From Desulfomonile tiedjei DSM 6799 (GTDB lineage: Bacteria > Desulfobacterota > Desulfomonilia > Desulfomonilales > Desulfomonilaceae): 64,000 bases of DNA. Made by a program: the position numbers and the translations under genes. This document shows, one piece after another, positions 3,232 through 63,300 of this stretch. Location of the stretch: positions 1,736,001-1,800,000 of the forward strand of contig NC_018025.1 of assembly GCF_000266945.1 (NCBI RefSeq). The letters are read 5' to 3'. How positions within the stretch are numbered: position 1 is the stretch's first letter; every line of letters starts with the position of its first letter. A model generated the notes under the pieces. That model was not told the DNA's origin. It saw nothing but the letters and a program-made list of their open reading frames with translations, and did no database searches.

Positions 3232-4119
3232 GTGTCAAGCAATCACTCTCGGCACATTTGGATTGCAGCAACGTTCATGATGCTTCTGCTGGTGAGCGCT
3301 CCGCACTCTTTCGCCCAGACCGACAAAGTCGTGGCAAAGATCGGTAATCAGACCGTAACTGAGTCCGACCTCAAAGAAATCTCGAATGCAGTACCGGAGA
3401 AGTTTCGCCACCTGTACCTTACTCCTGAAGGTAGGAAAAAAACCTTGGATTATGTGGTGAACATCTATGTGCTCGCCGCGGAAGCCGAAAGACTGGGGAT
3501 GGACAAGAAGCCCGAAACTGACAAGCTCCTGCAGTTTACCCGACGAGATCTCCTTGCAAGATTGTACCTCGATCAGATGAGCAAAGATTTGCCCGCACCC
3601 ACCGATGCGGAAGCCAAAGAATTTTACGAGGCGAATAAGGCCCAATACGCCACTCCCGAAAGTGTCCACCTGCATCACATTCTGGTCTCCTCTGAAAAGG
3701 AAGCGAAGGATGCGATGGACAAATTGAAGAAGGGCGAGAAATTCGCGGACCTGGCAAGCCAGATTTCGATCTGCCCGAGCAAGATGAAAGGCGGAAATTT
3801 GGAATGGCTGCCCAAAGGAAGCCTGGTGCCGGAAATCGAAGAAGTGGCATTCAGCATGAAGAACGGTCAGATTACAGGACCGGTAAAATCAAAGTTCGGA
3901 TATCACGTTCTTCTGCTGGAAGATAAAAAGCCGGCCCAGGAAAACAGCTTCGATCAGGTTAAAGAGTACATTCTGGAACAGCTTCGGTTCCAAAAACAAC
4001 AAGATCATTATGAAAAGATTTCCAATGACTTGCGGAAGAAAATGCAGGTACAAATTAACGATCAGAATTTACCGTCCGGAGTTCCCATTCCGGCAGGCCC
4101 GACCTCAGCGCCCAAGTGA
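3232..4119 (+). CDS. Secreted parvulin-type peptidyl-prolyl isomerase (PpiC/SurA-like)
   Basis: Protein of 295 residues. Residues 1-28 form a signal peptide ending SFAQ. A SurA-like helical N-terminal region (about 30-130, with VVAKIGNQTVTESDL) is followed by one parvulin rotamase domain at about 140-240: VHLHHILVSSEKEAKDAMDK, the GGNLEWLPKGSLVPEIEEVAF segment and the closing GPVKSKFGYHVLLLEDKKP. It should catalyse cis-trans isomerisation of prolyl bonds and assist folding of exported proteins in the periplasm. The tail is Pro-rich. The start is a GTG with AAGGAG nine bases upstream. The gene is monocistronic, with a sigma-70-type promoter before it and a hairpin after it. Confidence 0.85.
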   Translation: MSSNHSRHIWIAATFMMLLLVSAPHSFAQTDKVVAKIGNQTVTESDLKEISNAVPEKFRHLYLTPEGRKKTLDYVVNIYVLAAEAERLGMDKKPETDKLLQFTRRDLLARLYLDQMSKDLPAPTDAEAKEFYEANKAQYATPESVHLHHILVSSEKEAKDAMDKLKKGEKFADLASQISICPSKMKGGNLEWLPKGSLVPEIEEVAFSMKNGQITGPVKSKFGYHVLLLEDKKPAQENSFDQVKEYILEQLRFQKQQDHYEKISNDLRKKMQVQINDQNLPSGVPIPAGPTSAPK

Positions 4120-50124: not shown

Positions 50125-51186
50125 ATGGGTCGTATTTTGTATGGCGTCATGGGTGATGCTCAGGGACACGTGAGCCGGTCGCTTGCAGTCGCTCAGTCTC
50201 TGCCGGACCATGAATTCCTGTTTCTCGGAGGAGGATCGGTCCACACGGTGACAAAACTCGGGTATAGAGTGGAAGACGTGCCCATGGCCGGAACCTTGTA
50301 CCGAGGCACTCAAGTCGACCTCGTAGGGACAGCCAAGAACGCGCTGCAAGTGTTTGCAAGAAGTTCCCCTGTCGTTCGGAGGGTTGCATCAATAATCCGC
50401 GAGCTTGACCCGGACCTCATTATCACGGATTACGAATACTTCACTCCGTTGGCAGCGAAAAATCTAGGACGCCGGTGTGTCAGCCTCGATCATCAGCACG
50501 TGCTGACCCATTGCAGCTATGAAGTTCCGAGAGAGCAGCTTCTGAACCGGTTTTTTACCTGTTCCGCGGTGCGTTACCTGTACAGCAATGCAACACGTTA
50601 CTTCATTATCTCTTTCTTTATGCCGCCTCCGAAAAATCCGGACACTGTGGAGTTGTTCCCACCCATACTGAGAAAAGCCGTTTTCGAGCACAGTGCGACA
50701 GAAGGCGAGCATGTTGTGGTGTACGTGAGGAGCAACACCTTCAATAACCTCTTACCGCTCTTATCCGAAAAGAAAAGCATCTTCCACATCTACGGAATGG
50801 AGCCTCGTAATGCTGCAAAGAATATCGTGTTCAAGCCACATTCGGTGCACGGATTTCTGGAAGATATTGCATCGTGCCGCTACATCATTGCGACCGGAGG
50901 GCATGCGCTGATCAGTGAATCGCTCTATTTCGGCAAGCCGTTACTATGTATTCCGGTTGGGATGGCTTACGAACAATTCCTGAACGCTCATTTTGTCGAG
51001 AAAATGGGACTGGGCAGATGCTGGACCGGTAAGGAGCCCACGCATGCAGTACTCGATGATTTCGAATCACATTTTATTGAATATAGAGATGCTATTCGTC
51101 GGCACGCACGTTTCGACAATCGACCCTTGAACTCAAGATTGGAGCAGTTGATTAGCGAAGGATTCAGCAAGAAAAGCCAGTCATAG
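50125..51186 (+). CDS. GT-B glycosyltransferase (GT1/GT28-like)
   Basis: Protein of 353 residues. The N-terminal motif RILYGVMGDAQGHVSRSLAV is the donor-side Gly-rich loop of MurG-like/GT28-related enzymes of the MJ1255 type. PDLIITDYEYFTPLAAKNLG lies at the acceptor domain, and CRYIIATGGHALISESLYFG KPLL with PVGMAYEQFLNAHFVEKMG is the nucleotide-sugar binding motif of the C-terminal Rossmann domain. It should act in the cytoplasm or at the membrane surface on a lipid or small acceptor; the substrates are unknown. The ATG lies 111 bases after the AmpG-like gene in the same direction. Confidence 0.78.
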   Translation: MGRILYGVMGDAQGHVSRSLAVAQSLPDHEFLFLGGGSVHTVTKLGYRVEDVPMAGTLYRGTQVDLVGTAKNALQVFARSSPVVRRVASIIRELDPDLIITDYEYFTPLAAKNLGRRCVSLDHQHVLTHCSYEVPREQLLNRFFTCSAVRYLYSNATRYFIISFFMPPPKNPDTVELFPPILRKAVFEHSATEGEHVVVYVRSNTFNNLLPLLSEKKSIFHIYGMEPRNAAKNIVFKPHSVHGFLEDIASCRYIIATGGHALISESLYFGKPLLCIPVGMAYEQFLNAHFVEKMGLGRCWTGKEPTHAVLDDFESHFIEYRDAIRRHARFDNRPLNSRLEQLISEGFSKKSQS

Positions 51187-51320: not shown

Positions 51321-52505
51321 ATGAATAAACAATTCTATCATCTAAGGTCCCCGGGTCCGGATAAGCCCCATCAAATTTATGGGCGATCGGCATGGGAGAG
51401 AACCTTTGGCAGAGCAGAATGGCCCGCGATTGCAGCCGGATTCGCTACCGGTCGCATGTATTCGCCACATGGGTACCCGAAAAAAGATCTGGCCATTGTG
51501 CTTCCAACATCCAAGATAGGTGATTTCGTATGGACATGGTACAGCGAGTGCATTGTTCCGGATAAGACATTGGCGCTTTTCAAGGAAGCGAATTTTACGG
51601 GTTATGAAACTCGTCCGGTTATAATTGAAAAAGTCAAGGGTCTCAAGAAGAAGCATAGAGAAGAAGCGCCCATTCCCCAGCTATGGGAACTGTTGATCAG
51701 AGGCAAGGGAGGAGATGCCGCGCCTGAATCCGGGATAGCTCCTTATCAATATGAAGATAGTTCCGGTGTCGTGCACAGTGGCTACACCTCTTATCGCAAT
51801 GGGATCATCGTTGACGAAACCAACTGGGACGGCTCAGATTTCTTCACAATCAATGGATATCCCAAATTCCTTTTGGTTACTGAGCGGGTCAAAGAGTTCA
51901 TAATGGATCGGCAACTGACCAATTGCGCACTCGTACCATCCGACAAACTGAGATGGGGATCGGACGTAACGCCTGAAGAATCTTTGGCGCAGGACCGTGA
52001 GTTGGCCAGCCGTTCCTTTGAGGAACTCCTTGCGGAACTCGAAGACCCTGAATCGGCCAGGAGAGCCATGTACGGTCTGGGGTGCAAAGGCGATCCTCGG
52101 GCATTAGATTCTCTCATTGAGAGATTCGATCATCCGGACGTTTTGATCTGGCGTCCGGCGGCAAGTGCAGTGGCAGCTATTGCCAAGCACAAGTCATCAT
52201 CCGAACAGACTCGAGAGGAGATCTTTTCAAGACTTTGTGCATTGCTCGATCACAAGGATCCGCGGATACGAAAGACTGCAGCCATGGCCTTGAGTTACAT
52301 TGGGAGCGAGCAAGCGGCTCAGAAAGTCATGAGAGTGCTGAGTGATCCGGACGAATCGGTGCGAAGTACAGGCGTATTTGTAATGGGTTTCCTTCGGTAC
52401 AGGCCTGCATTGGAGGCCGTAAGACCTCTGATTCGGGATCGGAGCAAAAACGTACGCGAACATGCTCGACGAGTAGTCGCAGAATTGGAATGCGAATTCC
52501 GCTGA
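51321..52505 (+). CDS. HEAT-repeat protein with an immunity-protein-like N-terminal domain
   Basis: Protein of 394 residues. The N-terminal part (about 1-215) loosely recalls Imm11/double-CxxCG-type immunity proteins of myxobacteria and deltaproteobacteria, in particular FFTINGYPKFLLVTERVKEF followed by QLTNCALVPSDKLRWG; this is a weak pattern match. The C-terminal part (about 240-394) contains four to five HEAT/Armadillo-type helical repeats (GLGCKGDPRALDSLIERFDH, LLDHKDPRIRKTAAMALSYI, VLSDPDESVRSTGVFVMGFL, RDRSKNVREHARRVVAELEC). No toxin gene is adjacent. Cytoplasmic, probably a protein-binding factor. The ATG lacks a strong ribosome site. Confidence 0.62.
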   Translation: MNKQFYHLRSPGPDKPHQIYGRSAWERTFGRAEWPAIAAGFATGRMYSPHGYPKKDLAIVLPTSKIGDFVWTWYSECIVPDKTLALFKEANFTGYETRPVIIEKVKGLKKKHREEAPIPQLWELLIRGKGGDAAPESGIAPYQYEDSSGVVHSGYTSYRNGIIVDETNWDGSDFFTINGYPKFLLVTERVKEFIMDRQLTNCALVPSDKLRWGSDVTPEESLAQDRELASRSFEELLAELEDPESARRAMYGLGCKGDPRALDSLIERFDHPDVLIWRPAASAVAAIAKHKSSSEQTREEIFSRLCALLDHKDPRIRKTAAMALSYIGSEQAAQKVMRVLSDPDESVRSTGVFVMGFLRYRPALEAVRPLIRDRSKNVREHARRVVAELECEFR

Positions 52506-52628: not shown

Positions 52629-53732
52629 TCAGAGATCTACTAGCGAATAACTCGTGCTCCGGCCTCCACCGGTATCTTTTTGCAGAATGCCCAACTCAAG
52701 AAGCTCTGTGATGTCACGCAAAGCCGTATCCTGAGAACATTTCTCAATGTTGGCATATTTCGAGGTGTTCAGCTTGCCTTTGAAGCCTTCTAACAGGCGC
52801 ATGAGAATATCTTTCTGCCGCTGATTGAACGTCACGTTAGAATGGCGCTCCCAGAAGCGCGCTTTTTTGAGGACGTCGGCCAGGATCTCCTCGGCTCTTT
52901 CGATAGCACGATCCAGACAGTCCAGATACCAGCGCAACCATTCCGTGATATTAAGATCTCCTTTCTGTACTGCTTCCAGTTCCTTATAATAGACGTTTCG
53001 TTCCTGCCGGATCTGCGCTGACATGCTATAGAAGCGCTGCGAACTCCCCTCGGATTGCGCCAAAACCATATCTGCAATGGCCCGCGCGATGCGGCCGTTC
53101 CCGTCGTCAAATGGGTGGATCGACACAAACCACAAATGCGCAATACCTGATTTCAGAACCGGATCGATCTTTTGCTCGGCGTTGAACCATGCAAGAAAGC
53201 GTTTCATTTCACGGTCGAGACGTCCAGCATCGGGAGCCTGATAGTGAACTTTTTCCCTGCCAATAGGACCGGTAACAACTTGCATAGGTCCGGCGCTGTC
53301 ATCCCGCCATGCCCCGACTCGGATGCGCATCATGCCACTCCGCCCTGTTGGAAACAGCGAAGCATGCCAGCCGAACAGGCGTTCGTCGGTCAAAGGTTCA
53401 TCGAATTTCTGAATCGCATCGAGCATCATCTCGACAACGCCCTCGATATCCCGATCCACCGGCACCAGACCGGCGGCATCCAAACCCAAACGCCGCGCAA
53501 TTGAGGAACGCACCTGAACCGGATCGAGAATTTCACCTTCAATTTCGCTGGATGTGAGTACATCCCAGGTAAGGGTTTGAAGGATGGCTTCGTCCCGCAA
53601 AGAAAAGCCAAGGCTTTCCATTCGTCCGATTAGTCGCCCTTGCCGATGCCGGACAGCAGCCAATTGATCGGCTAACGCCTCTTTATTCCATTGAAATTTA
53701 GGCCACTCAGCCCGCTCGTGGATATATCTCAT
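52629..53732 (-). CDS. Fic-domain AMP-transferase with inhibitory helix and winged-helix tail
   Basis: Protein of about 367 residues. The active-site loop HPFDDGNGRIAR (HxFx(D/E)GNGRxxR) is complete. The N-terminal SSEIEGE carries the (S/T)xxxE(G/N) inhibitory motif, so it is a class II, self-inhibited Fic protein. An N-terminal DUF4172-like helical domain (FQWNKEALADQLAAVRHRQG) and a C-terminal winged helix-like part (LNTSKYANIEKCSQDTALRD, LLELGILQKDTGGGRSTSYS) complete the typical layout. It would transfer AMP to a protein Tyr/Thr/Ser or reverse this; the target is unknown. ATG 53732 fits the family N-terminus; a longer in-frame start at 53801 exists. Confidence 0.88.
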   Translation of the reverse strand: MRYIHERAEWPKFQWNKEALADQLAAVRHRQGRLIGRMESLGFSLRDEAILQTLTWDVLTSSEIEGEILDPVQVRSSIARRLGLDAAGLVPVDRDIEGVVEMMLDAIQKFDEPLTDERLFGWHASLFPTGRSGMMRIRVGAWRDDSAGPMQVVTGPIGREKVHYQAPDAGRLDREMKRFLAWFNAEQKIDPVLKSGIAHLWFVSIHPFDDGNGRIARAIADMVLAQSEGSSQRFYSMSAQIRQERNVYYKELEAVQKGDLNITEWLRWYLDCLDRAIERAEEILADVLKKARFWERHSNVTFNQRQKDILMRLLEGFKGKLNTSKYANIEKCSQDTALRDITELLELGILQKDTGGGRSTSYSLVDL

Positions 53733-53834
53733 AATAATAGCCGCACCTCTTGCGGAGATTATAAGCACTATTCGTCGCAAAGTCCAGATCATTCTCCGCA
53801 AAATATGCAGAGAATATATGCTCTAATCACCGCA

Positions 53835-54382: not shown

Positions 54383-57300
54383 TCAACGAATCAGCACCCT
54401 AGCTACCACGAGATTTCCTTGCTCTTCCACTTTGGCGATGACTTCCCCCCCAAAACCGGTTTCAAAGCAGCTCAAAGCTTCGTTGCGGAATTCCAAAGTC
54501 GCTGACCCGTATTCGTCCATTCGAGTGACGGCTATATCGCGAAGGTCGAATCTGAGGCCTGTTCCCATAGCTTTCAGGGTAGCTTCTTTCAGCGACCACA
54601 TTTTCGTCAGATCCAGCCAGCGAGAATCGGAGTTGCCTGCAGATCTGATTTCCTCTTCCGTGAAGTAATCCTCCACCCAGGAGTCGGTGCGTTCTTCTAT
54701 TTTCTCGACATCTATTCCGATTCCTCCGAACACGTTCGGCAAAACCGCGGCAGCCATAGCGAGTCCATTGGAATGGGACAGCGACAGATCGCAAATCCTG
54801 TCATCGGGCATGGTGTCGATTTGAGCAAACGGTTTGCCCTGAGCATCCTGAGCAATTCGGATTTCTCGTTCGTCCGGAAAAGCCTGGGATGAGAGTCCTG
54901 CAATCTTCCGAACGACACGTTTCATGGCGATTCTTCCCGCCAGCCATTCTGCTGCCCGTTTCGGTGTTGCTTTCCGGCCCAATTCTTCAGCTTCTTCAGG
55001 CTGCAGGAATTTGTCGGCCAGAGAATCTGTATCGTCTACTTTTGCGGCGATTTCCTTCACAGACTCCATGCACTCGAACACGTGAGCGGGAAAACTTTCC
55101 CTGGCTTCCGCTTCCATCATCTGCACGCCGGTGAATTCAATCATGACCCTGCCTTCTGTGTCCCGAACGAACCCATTGAATGTGAAGACCGTTCGTCCTT
55201 CCGGTCCGTCCTGAGAAACTTTCACACAGTGAAGCTCTCCGTCTTTCGGCATGGCTCCGGCATGGAAGAAGGTTACTTCAGCTATTCCGATGGGGAGCGC
55301 CATTATTCCGCGAGTTTCCTGGCCGAATGCCGCACCGCCCTGAAACACGGCTTCCATCGCTGCAGGAACCCGGTCCGTGAACATGGAATCTACCTCGGGC
55401 GTGTCCCTGTACCGGAATCGTATTCCTCCACCCTGCGATTCGATCTGAACGTATTCAAGGAGCATAAACGCAGGCCCATGGAAAAAGGACTCATAAATGA
55501 CCTCCCTCGGAACCCAAATGGACTCCGGCCAGAATTCCGACTTTACCGCGGACGGCTTTCGATCCGGTGCGAGGCGGATCGTACTTTCATGATGCAGTCT
55601 TTCTGCACCGATCTTTCTGCCTCGTGGATCTATGAACCACGAACTGATTCTGGTGTGGAAACTATTTGAACCCGTCTCGGAATCCTCAATCTTGCGTGCT
55701 TCCACTTCAGCTTCGAATGGGTCCTGTTTGAAAACCTTTATCGGACTGTGAAACTTTACGTTTTCCATGAGCACGGGGATGTCATTGCCAAGACCGGCTG
55801 CTGTCCGCATTATTTCCATGCCGCCGACCCCGGGCACAACTGCAGCCCTGTTGATCCTGTGGTGATCCAGGAGCGGATGTGCGGGGTGCAATTGGACCGT
55901 GGCCTTCAAGTATTCACCCGGTACGGAATGAACCACTGTGCCTTGTTGACCGGCAAAGGTCCGTTCTTCGAGTGAAGCCTCATCCTGCTGTCCGAATGCG
56001 TCAGGCGCAAACGGTCCGAATCTTCCTGCAGCAACCACCTCACAAGAGCCAGAGCTTCTGCCGAGTTCCTGAATGAGGAGTTCCACACCTCTCCGAGGAG
56101 GAATAAAATCGATTCCGGCAGCTTCCAGGGTTTTCTGGACGCTCCCTCTCGTCGCCATGCCGATTTCCGACCAGGGTGCCCAATCAATGATGGATACTTT
56201 TGCATCCAGATCCCGATCCGCTTTCCTGAGTAGATGCGCCAGTCCGTTATTTCCTGCTGAATAATCGAGCTGTGCGAGGTTTCCGAATCTTCCGGAAACA
56301 CTGCCAAACCCCACGATTCGTCGGGGCGGCATTTCATGACGGTTCAACGATTCCAAAATATTCTTCATTCCCTGAATCTTGACCGCTACGACTGTCTCGA
56401 TCTGCTCCAGAGTCTTGCTGCGGAGCGCCCGGCTATTGTCTATTCCCGCTGCATGGATCACGACGTCCACCCGACCGCAGGTGTCGGCAACATTCTGGAT
56501 TGCCGCGTCAACAGCTTCGGCATCTCGGATATCCAGCGCGCGGTAGATCACTTCTGCGCCGGCTTTTTTCAGACTTGAGATCGTGCGGAATACCTCCGCC
56601 TCTCCCTGCAATCGAGACAGTTCGCGTTCCACCATGACCGGAGTTACCGCGGTCTGAGTGCGTTTCAGTCTCTCCACGATCTTGCTCTTCTCCTCCTGCC
56701 AACGATCCGGGCTGAATTCCGCCAGTTGGCCGCTTCTCCCGGAGAGTTCCGTGCGCCCGAGTATCACTACGGTAGATGCATTTCCCTCAGCCAAAACCCG
56801 GAGGCATTCAGCGGTTATCCCTTTTGCTCCGCCGCTTACCAGGATCACATCGCCCGATCTAATTCCGGAATCTCCAGACACTGCTTCGGCAGGGACACAG
56901 CGGATTGCATATACGCTTCCCTTATCGTCAATCCCGATTTCGACAGGGAAATCGTGCGTGATGCTGCGTACGACCTGCTCGGAGACCTTTTCTGGCGGGA
57001 GTTCCGGATGCACATCCAGAACTCTGACGAGAGAATCAGGGTACTCTTTGGCAAAAGACTTGGCCGCTCCAGCAACTGCTCCCGCGACATACCCCAGGTC
57101 GGAAGGCTGATTGAAGCCGTATGCTCCGTCCTCTGATACCACCGATATGAAAAATGCGGGGCCGTTTTCAAAAGCCGTAGCGCTTGCGAGAAATAAAGCG
57201 AAGCTATCTCTCATGGAAGCGTCATTCGGTCTCAGCGCTTGAAGATCGATAATTCCGATCTTCTTTCCCGAAAATTGCTCCAGGGAAGTCACATCGGTCC

Positions 57301-60300
57301 ATCTGGTGATTGCGCCGTATCCCTGGGATTTCATAGCTTCAACGATTCTCGTCGAGAAATCTTCCGGTCCTCCGACAACGATCACTTCATCCGCCAGAGG
57401 AGCTGTTCTCGTCCGGACATTGCCCAGGGCAACAAGGCGGGTCTCGAACATATGGATTTCTCCCCCGGATGAAAGAACGTCTTCTGAGCTGTCATCCAAA
57501 GGCTTCGATAGCACCTGTGGGAGGGCGGACTGAGACTTCTCCGCTACAAATCCGATAATGTGATTTATTGTGGGAAAATCAGCTATCTTCAATCCTTCAA
57601 TACGAGGAATATTGAATGCGTCCCGCACTTCGGAAATGAACTCCGCCTGCTTTACCGTATCGATCCCCAGATCGGCTTCCAAATCCAGCTCGGTATCCAA
57701 CATGTCCGCGGGATAACCGGTCTTCGCGGAGAGCAACGACAATACTTTCTCTCGTATTGAGTTGGTATCTACAGATGTGGTCTCCTGAACCGGTTCTTCT
57801 CCGTCCTTCATCGTGTGCTCGTGCACAAAGTTGATGATATGCTCGATTGTCGGGAATTCCGCTATCTTGAGACCGTCAATTCGAGGGATATCAAATGCTT
57901 CTCTCACTTCAGAGATGAACTCCGCCTGCTTTACCGTATCGATCCCGAGATCCGCTTCAAGATCGAGAGCGGTATCGAGCATTTCCGCGGGATATCCTGT
58001 CTTTTCCGAAAGGAGTGAGAGAATACGGGAACGTATCGCTTCAGACGGCAGAGACGTTTCCGCAGGCTTTGAAGAGGGTTCCGATGCGGCAACAGCCCGT
58101 GCAGGTTCCACACTCGGAATAGCAGCTATTTTCTCAACCGATCGCTCCGTCACTTTGAGTGTTCTGCTTTCGACCGATATAACCGGGTCAGCGTATCCGG
58201 TCATCTCTTTCAACCAGTCTCGGTGTGAATTGAGGTCCGAAATGCGGTTCTCATCGCGACATAGAGATTTGTATAGCGCCATGACGATTTGCGAACCGAA
58301 TCCGGCTGCCAGCCGCAAGGCGTACGTTGCATTACACGATCCGCCCCTGCTCAAGGTCATATCCGCAAAATCCGGGTCCGGATGTCTCAGATTGGGGATC
58401 GGTGGCAAAAGCCCTTTCTGAAGACATCTGAGCGCCACCACGTCTTCGACACCCACACCCATGGTATGTCCTGTGAATCCCTTTGTATTGGTTATTGGGA
58501 TTTTCCTGGCCAGATCGCCGAAAGTATTCCTCAGAGCTTTGATTTCCGCTGCAGAACTGCCGCCTCGTTTGGGGGAATACGTTTCGTGAGACATGAAAAA
58601 CATGTCGGACGCAAGGTTTTCTCGTGAAATCCCGGTTTGTTCCTCCCATTTGGCAATCATCTTTTCCATGACCGTGGAAATGTGCTCGACATCCAGGCGA
58701 GTACCGTGGAAACCACTGTTTGCCGTCACAGCAGCTTCGACGGAAGCTATTGGCTCCATGCCGCGTTTCTTGACCATGTCTCCATTTTCCAGCACGATTC
58801 CCACTGCAGCAGACCCGAGTATCAAACCGTTTCTGCGATCGTCAAAGGGCAGGGCGGCTTCACTTATGTTTCCATTGGTCGTTGCTGCTCCCATGGCGAG
58901 AAAACCGCTGCCGATCCACGGGAACAAGGATTTGCCCGCAACATCGTCTGCAGCAATGATGATGACCCGTTTTGCCTGACCGGTTCTGATCCAGTCCCTT
59001 GCAAGCACTACAGCCTGAGTAGTTCCTGCACACGCGGCATCCACGTGAGTATTCGGTCCCTGGGCTTTTATCAACTGAGCCAATTGGCCTTGAGCCATGC
59101 TCATGACACGGAGGAGGAAATCCCTGTTGAACGTGTACAGATGCTCCCGGGAATCGGCAGGACTCATCTGAGCGAACTCATCGGCAAACCAGCGGGTGAT
59201 ACGCTCGCGCTCGCTGTCGTCCGCAACACGCTGAATCAGGCCCGTATAGAAGTCAATAAGACGGTTCTTGGCTCCCGATCCGAATCTGGCAGCCGTTTCC
59301 CTGGTCACTTCATCCACAAGGGAGGCCATGCCCGGAAAGGCCGAAGCGAAGATGATTCCCGTTTCCGCACGCAAATCCGGCGGTAAAGCCCAGGAGTCCG
59401 GCAACTCCGCTCCGGTGCTTGTGATTCTCACCTGTCGCATGAGAGGAATGCCTGCATCCCTGAGCGCCTCTATCCCGGCTGCTACGGCAAGTCTGGTGGT
59501 CACGTCCATAGCTCTGACAAGACGTTCGTCCAAACCGTATTCGTCAATGGCATCATTTTCGCTGAAGAATCCCGCCAACTGAATCACGCCGGACAAATCG
59601 TCCACAACCTGCAGTTCCGCTTCTCCCAATGGGCCTTTAACAAGGCGTTCGACATTCTTCTCCAGCATGAGCCTACGATTGTGATCCGTTACTTTTTTAA
59701 TGAAGTTTCTTCCCAGAATCAGATCGTCGAGGGTTTCTCTGTCGAAGGGGAATCGCACGTCACTCGGCAGACCCGCGGCTATTCCACTCACCACAGCAGG
59801 AGCGAAATTCATTCCTTCGGATTGGACGGTCTTGACTGTCCTCTCCATAGGGAGCACGTTTTCCACGAACGATTTGAAACCGGTTTTGATGAGAGCCCGA
59901 ATAGGTTCGCCCTGAATTTCCAGGTACCTACGGAACTCCTTCTTCGTTGCGATTTCCCGGATTTCCGCGTCAAGGAGATCCGTCAGAAGCTCAGGAGCAG
60001 ATTGTACAACCGGGGCTGGGCTTGGAGACACCTGGGGAGCATCGACCACTCTCAATTCGGCTTTAACCGGTCGAGCTGACTTTTGCTGTTTCGGTTTTTC
60101 GCCTGCATCGAAATCCACCGGAATGCCCTCTGCGGCCAATGCTGCAAGAGTTTCCATCAACTGACCGATCCCGCCCTTTTTGGGATGATTGGTGGGGAGA
60201 GCGAGGACGTCCGCGGATAAGGTATCCAGCGTCAGGTTGGTCATGACCCGTTTGGGTCCGCATTCAAGGAATATCCGGATTCCTTCGCTGTAGAGCTTTC

Positions 60301-63300
60301 GTAGCGATTTCACCCATTCGACCGGGGCTGCGAACTGTTTGCCAAGAAGATCCAAGATCTTTGTCGGCGCTGCGGGTCCTACGGGGTAATAGTCTCCGGT
60401 AACATTGGACAAAACGGGAATATTGGGCGGATTGACAGTTAATCGTTCCAGAGTTTTCATGAACGGCTCTCGTGCGGGAGCGACAACTCCGGAATGAAAT
60501 GCCGCGGAAACCGGGACGAGGATTCCTTCCAGACCACGAGCTTTGAAAAGCTCTCCTGCTTTCTTGACAGCGGCCGTTTCGCCGGAAATCACTGTTTGCT
60601 TGGGCGAATTCTTGTTTGCAGCCACAACGTATCCGTCGACTTCGGCCAGCACTTCTTCCACCAATCTCGCGTCAGCGGGAATGCTCATCATGAGTCCCGG
60701 GTCTGCGATACTGACACGTGCCATTTCGCGACCTCTGACTGCAACCGCCTGCAACGCATCTTCAAACGAGAAAACACCGGCAGCAACACACGCGGCATAC
60801 TCACCGAGAGAGTGTCCGGCAACGGCTGCAGGATGAATCCCCATTTCGCCGAGAAGCCGGAATATTGCCGTGTTCGCTGTCAAGATCATCGGCTGAAGGA
60901 GCTGAGTGTCCTTCATGGCATCCCCCAACTCCTGAGGCGATCCACTTTGGAGTGAGGGAAAAACGGTTTCCGTGACCCCCGGCAAACCGAAGGAAGTCAA
61001 TATCCTGTCAGCTTCGCTGAATGTCGCCGCAACTATGGGAAAACGCTCGGCAAGATCGCGCATCATGTACGGATACTGCGACCCCTGGCCGGGGAAGATG
61101 AAAGCAATACCACTCTTCGATCTGGCATTTCCGGCTTCTGCATAGTGAATGCCTCGCGCCGGAAAGAACGATCTCTTGGCAGGGTCAGTTATTCCCTCTC
61201 TGATCAACTCCAATTTCTGGATTGCCGTATCGAAATTGTGAGCTGCGAATCCGCACCGAATTTTGTTTGCAGCAGCTTTCGCCCTGAGATTAGTGAGCAC
61301 GTCAAGACTGTTTTCCCGGGTCAACTGTTTCAACAGAGCCGAGATCTCCTCCGTCATGTCGGCAGGATTGTCGCCACCAATCACCCATGCGTTCCCCTGT
61401 ACTTCCATCTGAGGGGGCTTAGGCCAGTTCGGCAGTGGAGGAGTCACTGGTGCGGCGACCGACTTTCTTCCGGAAACAACCCGGAGTTCGGGGACATGTT
61501 CCTGCACGACCACATGAAAGTTTGTCCCCCCAAACCCGAAAGCACTGACTCCCGCCCGTCTCGGATATCCATTTTCCGGTTCCCACGGCTTCGGCTCGTT
61601 AACCAGGAACAGCGGTGAAGAATCCCAGTCTATGCACGGATTGGGATTTCGGACGTTGGCCGTTGGAGGAAGCGTTTTGTGATAAACGCTCAGGATTGCC
61701 TTGATTACACCGGCGGAACCTGCCGCGGCTTTCAGATGCCCGATCTGGGATTTTACCGAACCCACACCCAAGGAAGCCAGTGGCTGACCTGACGATCTGA
61801 AGAAAGCATCCAGAACCTTCAATTCCGTGGCGTCTCCCACCGGCGTTGAGGTTCCGTGTGCTTCGATAAGACTTATGCTCCGGGGATCGATTCCGCCCGA
61901 TTCGAGGCATGCTTTAAGCGCACGCTCTTGTCCGGCTGCATTGGGTGCAGTAATTCCTTTGCCTCTGCCGTCGGATGATGACCCTACGGAAAGGATGACT
62001 CCGTAAATGCGATCCCTGTCTCGCACTGCGTCCGAGAGCCGTTTCAGGACCATGATCCCCGCGCCCTCGCCCATGACGAATCCGTTTGCCCCCACGTCGA
62101 AGGGCCTGCTGCCGTCCGGTGAAAGAGCGCCGACTTTGGAGAATTTCACGAAAGAAGACGGGTGCATGGCCGCATCCACTCCACCAGCTATTGCGAGATC
62201 CACAGATTCATCCCGTAAAGCTGAAACCGCGTTCATCATCGCTGCCATAGAAGACGCACACGCTGCGTCCACGGTGAAGTTGGGGCCTTCGAGATTAAAA
62301 ACGTTTGCGACCCGCCCGGAAATAACGTTGGCAAGCTCACCGGGAAGCGAGTCTTCTGTAATGGGCGGAAGCGCGCCAAGGTACTTGGATTTGAAATCTT
62401 CCATCAATTGCTGCTTGGCATTGGGATCGAGGCCTAAGCGATCGAACGATTCTTCAAGGCATGCCAGTGCTCGCGGGAATGACACCCGTTCGGCATAAAG
62501 ATCTGTTTTCTGGCCTCCCATGCTATTGCCAAGGACTATTCCCACGCGCCGACCTTTGAGCTGTTCGGGGGTCAGCCGTGCATCGGTAAGAGCATCTCCC
62601 GTGCAGGCAACGGCCAACTGCTGAGTCCGATCCATGAGAGCAGCCACTGCAGGAGGAATGCGGTACTTCAATGGATCGAATTGAAAATCCGTAACAAACC
62701 CGCCAATCCGGGAATAAGTCTTGTCCGGAGCTTTAGGGTCCGGATCGTAATAGAGATTCGGATCTCCCCACCGATCGCTCGGAACATCCACAATGCCGTT
62801 TCTCTTGGTTTTTATGTTTTCCCAGAAGGAGTCAGGGTTGGCTGCACCCGGGAATCTGAGACCGATGCCGACTACTGCAATGGGTTCTCGTTCTACCGTC
62901 ACTTCAATATTCTGCACTAAGACCTCTTCTTCAGGCGCATCAAGCTGTTTTTTGGTTTGAGACGCTTTCTCGAAAATTCTGCGGCCGTTTTCGACGATTT
63001 CGGCATGAAATTCTGCGATGGTCTGTTTTTGATCGAGGACGGAAACGACTTGTCCCATGAGGTACAAACCGCGGTCAAGCTGCTCTTCCGGCGTCAAATC
63101 GCAGAAAACAGGACAATCCCAGGTAGCGGTTTCCGGGTCGATTGCGCAGCCTTTGGATGCAAGGCGAAGCGCTCCGAGATTATCCTTTTCGTATTGTTCC
63201 TTTCGTTCGGTCAGTCCCACACCATTCCTGATGCGTTCATGTTCCCGGAACAACATCTGTGCGGCCATGGGCGAGTTGGCTGCTCTTGCCCTGATGTTTA

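Follow-up and report, generated by a model that had tools for sequence, protein, structure and literature searches.

Both tandem acyl carrier protein (ACP) domains of a megasynthase of Desulfomonile tiedjei DSM 6799 have threonine, Thr2341 and Thr2434, at the position where ACPs attach the 4'-phosphopantetheine arm to serine. The gene is located on the reverse strand of a stretch of 64,000 nucleotides (contig NC_018025.1, positions 1,736,001 to 1,800,000), referred to here as the window, in a genome of 6,527,027 bases, of which the larger of its two contigs makes up 6,500,104. Judged from the sequences compared, this threonine is a switch at the attachment site that extends over a whole clade of synthases, beyond chance and not a sign of decay. 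Sequences and structural models together indicate that the arm is most likely placed on threonine, installed by the synthase's own Sfp-type phosphopantetheinyl transferase (PPTase). The rule that the arm is borne by serine underlies the finding, assaying and engineering of carrier domains; the synthase family was described in 2011.

Threonine at the carrier attachment site

Both carriers were recognized by the profile PF00550 (32.3 and 29.8 bits; cut-off 20.8), with threonine instead of the serine expected at the attachment position. An earlier note on this DNA had reported this threonine in both tandem ACPs, and the codons were found exactly where it had placed them, both being ACG (Table 1); its residue numbers, Thr2022 and Thr2115, are correct for the frame of 3205 amino acids (aa) that is clipped by the window edge, but not for the whole protein. 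In profile alignments with solved ACPs (PigH, Aquifex and others) the carrier threonine fell on the phosphopantetheine serine. A confident AlphaFold model of ACP1 (built with 43 sequences; that of the PPTase with 40) predicted an ACP fold in which the threonine, residue 37 of 78, opens helix II (37-50), and its best structural matches in the PDB were ACPs, with Z up to 13.5. A different serine at the attachment site, the counter-evidence named in the earlier note, was seen neither in the alignments nor in the model.

A sequencing or frame error as the source of the threonine was excluded, the residue being common to all relatives, and the carrier alignments excluded a shift of the attachment serine to another place. 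Decayed carrier domains were excluded as well, since the neighbouring active sites are intact. Among Thr-bearing relatives, the first ketosynthase (KS1) kept its Cys, His and His in 111/111, the acyltransferase (AT) its Ser in 117/118 (one gap) and its His in 118/118, the second ketosynthase (KS2) its Cys, His and His in 134/134, the ketoreductase (KR) its Ser and Tyr in 123/123, and the dehydratase (DH) its His in 97/97 and its Glu in 95/97 (two gaps). The earlier remark that the carriers do not look dead agrees with this conservation.

Distribution and origin of the threonine carriers

The carrier search gave a match in 27 of the 297 genomes of the own phylum. Among the loci read there, threonine was present only in the window genome, in another member of its family (G102) and in a distant genome (G186, with three tandem copies), and the other PfaA-like proteins had DLGIDSIK or a near variant, with serine. 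Genome contigs were also scanned with patterns that included the Thr stretch, and the best 79 of at least 521 relatives were taken as the ACP-baited set; all 231 carrier copies in it had threonine. Since this bait is biased to threonine, a second bait was taken from outside the carrier, namely KS2, so that it was blind to the attachment residue. At E ≤ 1e-50 it matched 13/199 genomes in the phylum of an Acidobacteria record, 9/201 in the Longilinea phylum (Chloroflexota), 56/235 in the phylum of a Myxococcales record and 6/395 in the own phylum. Three of these 84 genomes (L080, L106, L119) were counted with the ACP-baited set and one locus (L287) came from a separate KS2 search; 8 of the resulting 82 loci had no carrier, owing to contig ends, leaving 74.

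These 74 loci contained 205 copies with threonine, 4 with serine and 2 cut off (L234 and one copy of L231, which end before the attachment site and stand outside the ratio), so that threonine accounts for 205 of the 209 readable copies; in 69 loci every copy was Thr, 3 loci were mixed, 1 (L287) had only Ser and 1 was cut off. Both sets together comprise 442 carrier copies from 153 loci (436 Thr, 4 Ser, 2 cut off), and no residue other than Thr or Ser was present at the site in the 440 readable copies. From 1 to 6 carriers per locus were seen, some loci being clipped by contig ends, and all copies retain a DSL-like signature. The statement in the earlier note that the variant occurs in a set of uncharacterised proteins resembling polyketide synthases (PKSs) was borne out by the large set found in these scans.

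Nearest named relatives among the matches listed were Desulfomonilaceae, Desulfomonile and Syntrophaceae metagenome-assembled genomes (MAGs). According to record titles or the tree, the matches listed bear the phylum labels Thermodesulfobacteriota, Myxococcota, Acidobacteriota, Elusimicrobiota, Chloroflexota, Bacteroidota, Rhodothermota, Actinomycetota, Pseudomonadota, Calditrichota, KSB1, Gemmatimonadetes and Thermoplasmatota; as MAGs make up nearly all of the labelled records, an individual label may be mistaken. Two of the holders of Thr carriers, however, Longilinea arvoryzae and Ornatilinea apprima, are named strains. On the sequence comparisons, the Thr synthases sampled are one KS-AT-KS-ACPn-KR-DH clade, labelled as at least 10 phyla. 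Three loci with Type R-like synthases (L121, L134, L287; Type R is compared below) belong to records labelled Thermoplasmatota, by archaeal origin or by a binning error; L287, the sole locus with a Ser-only carrier, is from the same genome as L121.

A genome-wide Thr habit of the organism was excluded, its other carriers having serine. The window genome has a separate Ser-bearing ACP (L005), and in nine genomes with clade synthases 25 of the carrier matches listed were translated; six were Thr carriers of the clade itself, and the remaining 19, the other carriers, all had serine.

The KS1 tree was of a quick kind and comprised 101 rows, without L241, L243, L269 and L287. All Thr-protein rows were on one side of a single branch, starred in the tree, with no Ser-type protein among them. 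Inside this group, L068, L122 and L128, in which no KS2 was detected, are split or clipped genes whose loci carry threonine, and G186 (L040) has a very long branch. Within the sampled loci, the tree indicates that the Thr state arose once.

PfaA-like relatives outside the clade had serine at the site in 46/46, and the carrier signature, DTVKQ in the clade, is mostly DSIKR in the Ser-type set. The residue after threonine was Val in 435/435 readable copies, whereas that after serine outside the clade was Ile in 46/46, a pairing that looks as if the extra methyl group were compensated. This coupling is not strict, since the four clade copies with serine are evenly split, with Ile next in two of them and Val in the other two. 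All four threonine codons are in use at the site (ACG 214, ACC 182, ACA 22, ACT 17; one copy unscored), and the clade serines are encoded by TCC (2) and AGC (2). Serine is one base change away from threonine, yet it was present in only 4 of the 440 readable copies. Three of these four belong to an additional carrier that follows AT and precedes KS2 in proteins of the phylum Myxococcota (L241, L243, L269); as this slot holds 49 Thr (2 ACP-baited, 47 KS2-baited) against 3 Ser, the two residues interchange at the same place.

The phosphopantetheinyl transferase and the probable activation of the carriers

The fused PPTase announced in the earlier note, with intact motifs, was confirmed by its Pfam match and catalytic residues (Table 1). 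The Asp, Glu, Glu and Lys of this enzyme were kept in 109/109 of the clade, and its model (predicted local distance difference test, pLDDT, 95.2) had the two-lobed fold of Sfp-type enzymes; the nearest structure was that of carrier-bound Sfp (4mrt, Z 19.3, root-mean-square deviation 2.8 over 189 residues). Motif P1a, x(G/D)xP, was present in 104/109 of the clade (QGKP in the window protein), and in motif P1b', hShxH, Ser was found three positions before the His in 92 of the 106 PPTases having this His (LSLSH in the window protein).

The PPTase was fused in 39 of the 58 KS2-baited synthase open reading frames (ORFs) with KR and carrier, and of the 12 that lacked the fusion and had at least 5 kb of sequence downstream, 11 had a same-strand PPTase; in G186 it is nearby on the opposite strand. 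In the ACP-baited set, fusion was seen in 5/66, and 38 of 42 unfused ORFs with at least 5 kb of sequence downstream had a linked PPTase, which in most cases overlaps or adjoins the synthase and in others is about 5.5 kb away. Fusion was seen in the family of the window protein, in many proteins of Myxococcota and in isolated cases (L069, L121), the PPTase being usually a separate downstream gene elsewhere in the clade. A strict tie of threonine to a fused PPTase, suggested in the earlier note as a possible co-occurrence, is excluded by Ser proteins with the fusion and by Thr synthases with a separate gene; threonine follows one synthase clade instead. Two proteins with mixed Thr and Ser carriers hold a fused PPTase, which must accept both residues if it activates all their carriers.

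In the proposed mechanism, the megasynthase would be a self-contained iterative fatty-acyl/polyketide synthase (ER-KS-AT-KS-ACP-ACP-KR-DH-PPTase, ER being enoyl reductase), the carriers of which would act like ordinary ACPs, but with 4'-phosphopantetheine on threonine. The C-terminal Sfp-type PPTase would move the arm from coenzyme A (CoA) onto Thr2341 and Thr2434, the arm would be loaded with malonyl by AT, KS1 and KS2 would elongate, and KR, DH and ER would process the chain. We infer the modification of threonine, the fused PPTase as its modifier, and a lipid as the product.

Several points weigh against an arm on threonine. The S36T variant of Escherichia coli ACP is reported as unmodified and as failing to substitute for the wild type (available text of PMC3340395), so at least one Ser-type PPTase uses threonine poorly, and the S38T variant of spinach ACP is reported as non-functional (available text of PMC9310384). 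No PPTase was found at L065, L093, L094, L104 and L215 despite at least 5 kb of downstream sequence; three Ser-type proteins of the own phylum (L053, L055, L056) have a fused PPTase; and a nearby PPTase is reported for many synthase types (available text of Shulse & Allen, PMC3098273). Also, no clearly distinctive residue of the clade PPTases was found near the catalytic motifs with five Ser-type PPTases as control; most of these five have other residues at positions 3421, 3423 and 3461, but five are too few for a conclusion. The S36T and S38T results concern Ser-type carriers with Ser-type PPTases; they lend more meaning to a dedicated PPTase and are also compatible with threonine simply not being used.

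If threonine were not used, the carriers would never be pantetheinylated: threonine would hold the fold, substrates would travel on other carriers, such as the Ser-bearing ACP of the cell's fatty acid synthase (FAS), or as CoA esters, and the Thr domains would be docking scaffolds. The unmodified E. coli variant and the separate Ser ACP of the window genome (L005) speak for this explanation, but all 1 to 6 carriers per locus retain the signature, only Thr or Ser stands at the site, and most loci have a catalytically intact PPTase, fused or linked, which is hard to explain without pantetheinylation; this explanation is considered quite unlikely. An arm on another hydroxyl of the carrier is extremely unlikely, as the Thr site aligns with the serine of solved ACPs and no Ser, Thr or Cys column specific to the clade was found elsewhere in the domain when clade and Ser-type carriers were aligned; two further hydroxyls are nearly invariant, Thr2320 and Thr2370, but both are threonine in the Ser-type set too (46/46 and 44/46). 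Nothing in favour of such an arm was seen in these alignments.

Threonine could also be a weak, tolerated substitute that was fixed once by drift in an ancestor, with inefficient attachment and a PPTase not adapted to it. The single origin in the KS1 tree and the lack of a distinctive PPTase residue near the catalytic motifs are in favour of such a history. However, were threonine a handicap, serine would return by its single base change, and the few serines that did appear are, in three of four cases, in the extra carrier outside the tandem array; drift is thus regarded as unlikely. Attachment to threonine by the synthase's own PPTase is retained as the probable explanation. A further step, proposed only tentatively, is that the Thr carriers and their PPTase form a second, insulated system, in which the housekeeping AcpS would be unable to charge threonine and activation would come only from the fused or linked PPTase. 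Its separation from fatty-acid synthesis would have been fixed a single time and then have spread to at least 10 bacterial phyla, and possibly archaea.

The literature searched, mostly non-subscription papers, contained nothing relevant on a threonine-borne arm or on the Thr motif. If the attachment to threonine is true, the modification chemistry of PPTases is wider than serine, searches for the Ser motif would misjudge Thr carriers as dead, and the clade could give a carrier/PPTase pair without cross-talk to the AcpS of a host.

Gene layout and comparison with known systems

The order of domains in the megasynthase is two FabK/PfaD-like ER stretches, KS1, AT, KS2, ACP1, ACP2, KR, a double hot-dog DH and the Sfp-type PPTase (Table 1). 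The start codon, ATG, is at window-equivalent position 64957 (G000:C1:1800957), 957 bases outside the window. The second, related ER stretch is N-terminal of the one in the table and outside the window; the TIGR03151 score of the ER domain was below its cut-off.

Table 1. Coordinates in the window of the megasynthase gene, its domains and the two attachment codons.
Feature	Position	Strand	Residues and evidence
Megasynthase gene	54383..64000, running past the window edge	(-)	product P0001, 3524 aa
PfaD/FabK-like enoyl reductase (nitronate monooxygenase family)	62993..64000, first bases beyond the window	(-)	aa 314-655; PF03060, E 3e-18
KS1	61493..62887	(-)	aa 691-1155; Cys900, His1034, His1074
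AT	60215..61102	(-)	aa 1286-1581; Ser1383, His1488
KS2	58268..59740	(-)	Cys1976, His2124, His2164; in the place of the Type R 'CLF' (chain-length factor)
ACP1	57824..58027	(-)	PF00550; model pLDDT 92.7
Thr2341 codon (ACG), ACP1 attachment position	57935..57937	(-)	codon reading and alignments
ACP2	57545..57751	(-)	PF00550
Thr2434 codon (ACG), ACP2 attachment position	57656..57658	(-)	codon reading
KR	56165..56845	(-)	aa 2705-2931; Ser2886, Tyr2899
Double hot-dog DH	55100..55903	(-)	aa 3019-3286; His3033, Glu3202
Fused Sfp-type PPTase	54386..55003	(-)	aa 3319-3524; PF01648, E 5.6e-17; Asp3416, Glu3418, Glu3458, Lys3462

Classical chain-length factors have lost the active-site Cys. KS2, which is named 'chain-length factor' in the description of Type R, may work as a ketosynthase, judging from its conserved residues. 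The conserved Glu of the DH, its second catalytic acid, is placed in an ME-x3-Q-like motif; PKS dehydratases generally have Asp as the second catalytic acid.

A gene for a TetR-type regulator is located directly upstream of the megasynthase, on the same strand (L004:10955-11947). Other genes of the window, assigned by Pfam, encode a glycosyltransferase (50125-51186), a HEAT-repeat protein (51321-52505) and a Fic protein (52629-53801), the last being just downstream of the megasynthase gene and bearing DUF4172; these three neighbours give no hint of a common pathway. The window genome contains a second PKS (2648-aa frame; L006, G000:C1:3881872-3882069) with the carrier motif DLSIRSSRLP, in which Arg replaces the Asp before Ser, a carrier also found in a related genome (L303, G958). 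The PPTase adjoining this second PKS (L003, 285-aa frame) has GLDSA versus the Sfp-type G(I/V)DxE, and its metal-binding Glu seems to be missing.

PfaA (TIGR02813) was the best NCBIfam match of the megasynthase, with a score of 937.5, below the cut-off of 1010.1 for membership. The window protein shares with PfaA and the omega-3 polyunsaturated fatty acid synthases a related KS-AT-ACPn-KR order and the carrier motif DLGID[S/T][I/V]K, but the PfaA-like carriers read have Ser where it has Thr. Like fungal type I FAS it is a megasynthase with a C-terminal PPTase, and the PPTase model superposes on the fungal structure (2was, Z 16.9); in fungal type I FAS the carrier residue is Ser and the domain order is different. 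The tandem ACPs of PigH (5y08) are the closest solved sequence to the carrier profile, and are tandem too, but with Ser at the site.

Type R synthases are described as a type of secondary lipid synthase with an uncharacterised product (Shulse & Allen 2011, PMC3098273), and the word 'threonine' is absent from the main text of that paper, as available. According to the same text, they resemble the window protein and its relatives in the KS-MAT-(KS-like)-ACPn-KR order in one chain, in a PPTase next to the synthase with motifs P1a and P1b', in a distribution scattered over Acidobacteria, Elusimicrobia and Chloroflexi, and in the occurrence, in an acidobacterium (here L074), of an acetyl-CoA carboxylase (ACC) gene that separates the synthase from the PPTase. 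In this Acidobacteriaceae record, the one case examined of a gap of about 5.5 kb before the PPTase, the gap is filled by a fused ACC of 1897 aa (L074:13170-18860), composed of biotin carboxylase, biotin domain, ACC central region and carboxyl transferase, in the order of eukaryotic ACC. A gene for an acyl-CoA dehydrogenase of about 560 aa precedes the synthase in relatives (L110 and L074 by Pfam, L084 by sequence similarity), which is consistent with lipid chemistry without being proof of it.

On the other hand, Type R is described with 3-6 ACPs and a separate downstream PPTase gene, whereas the window protein has 2 ACPs, a fused PPTase and an ER fused into the same chain, and KS2 of its clade keeps Cys-His-His and is not an obvious chain-length factor. 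Because of the 2 ACPs and the fused PPTase and ER, and with Type R compared by its description, the window protein is referred to as a member of a Type R-like clade and is not filed as Type R; by architecture, this clade includes the Type R secondary lipid synthases.
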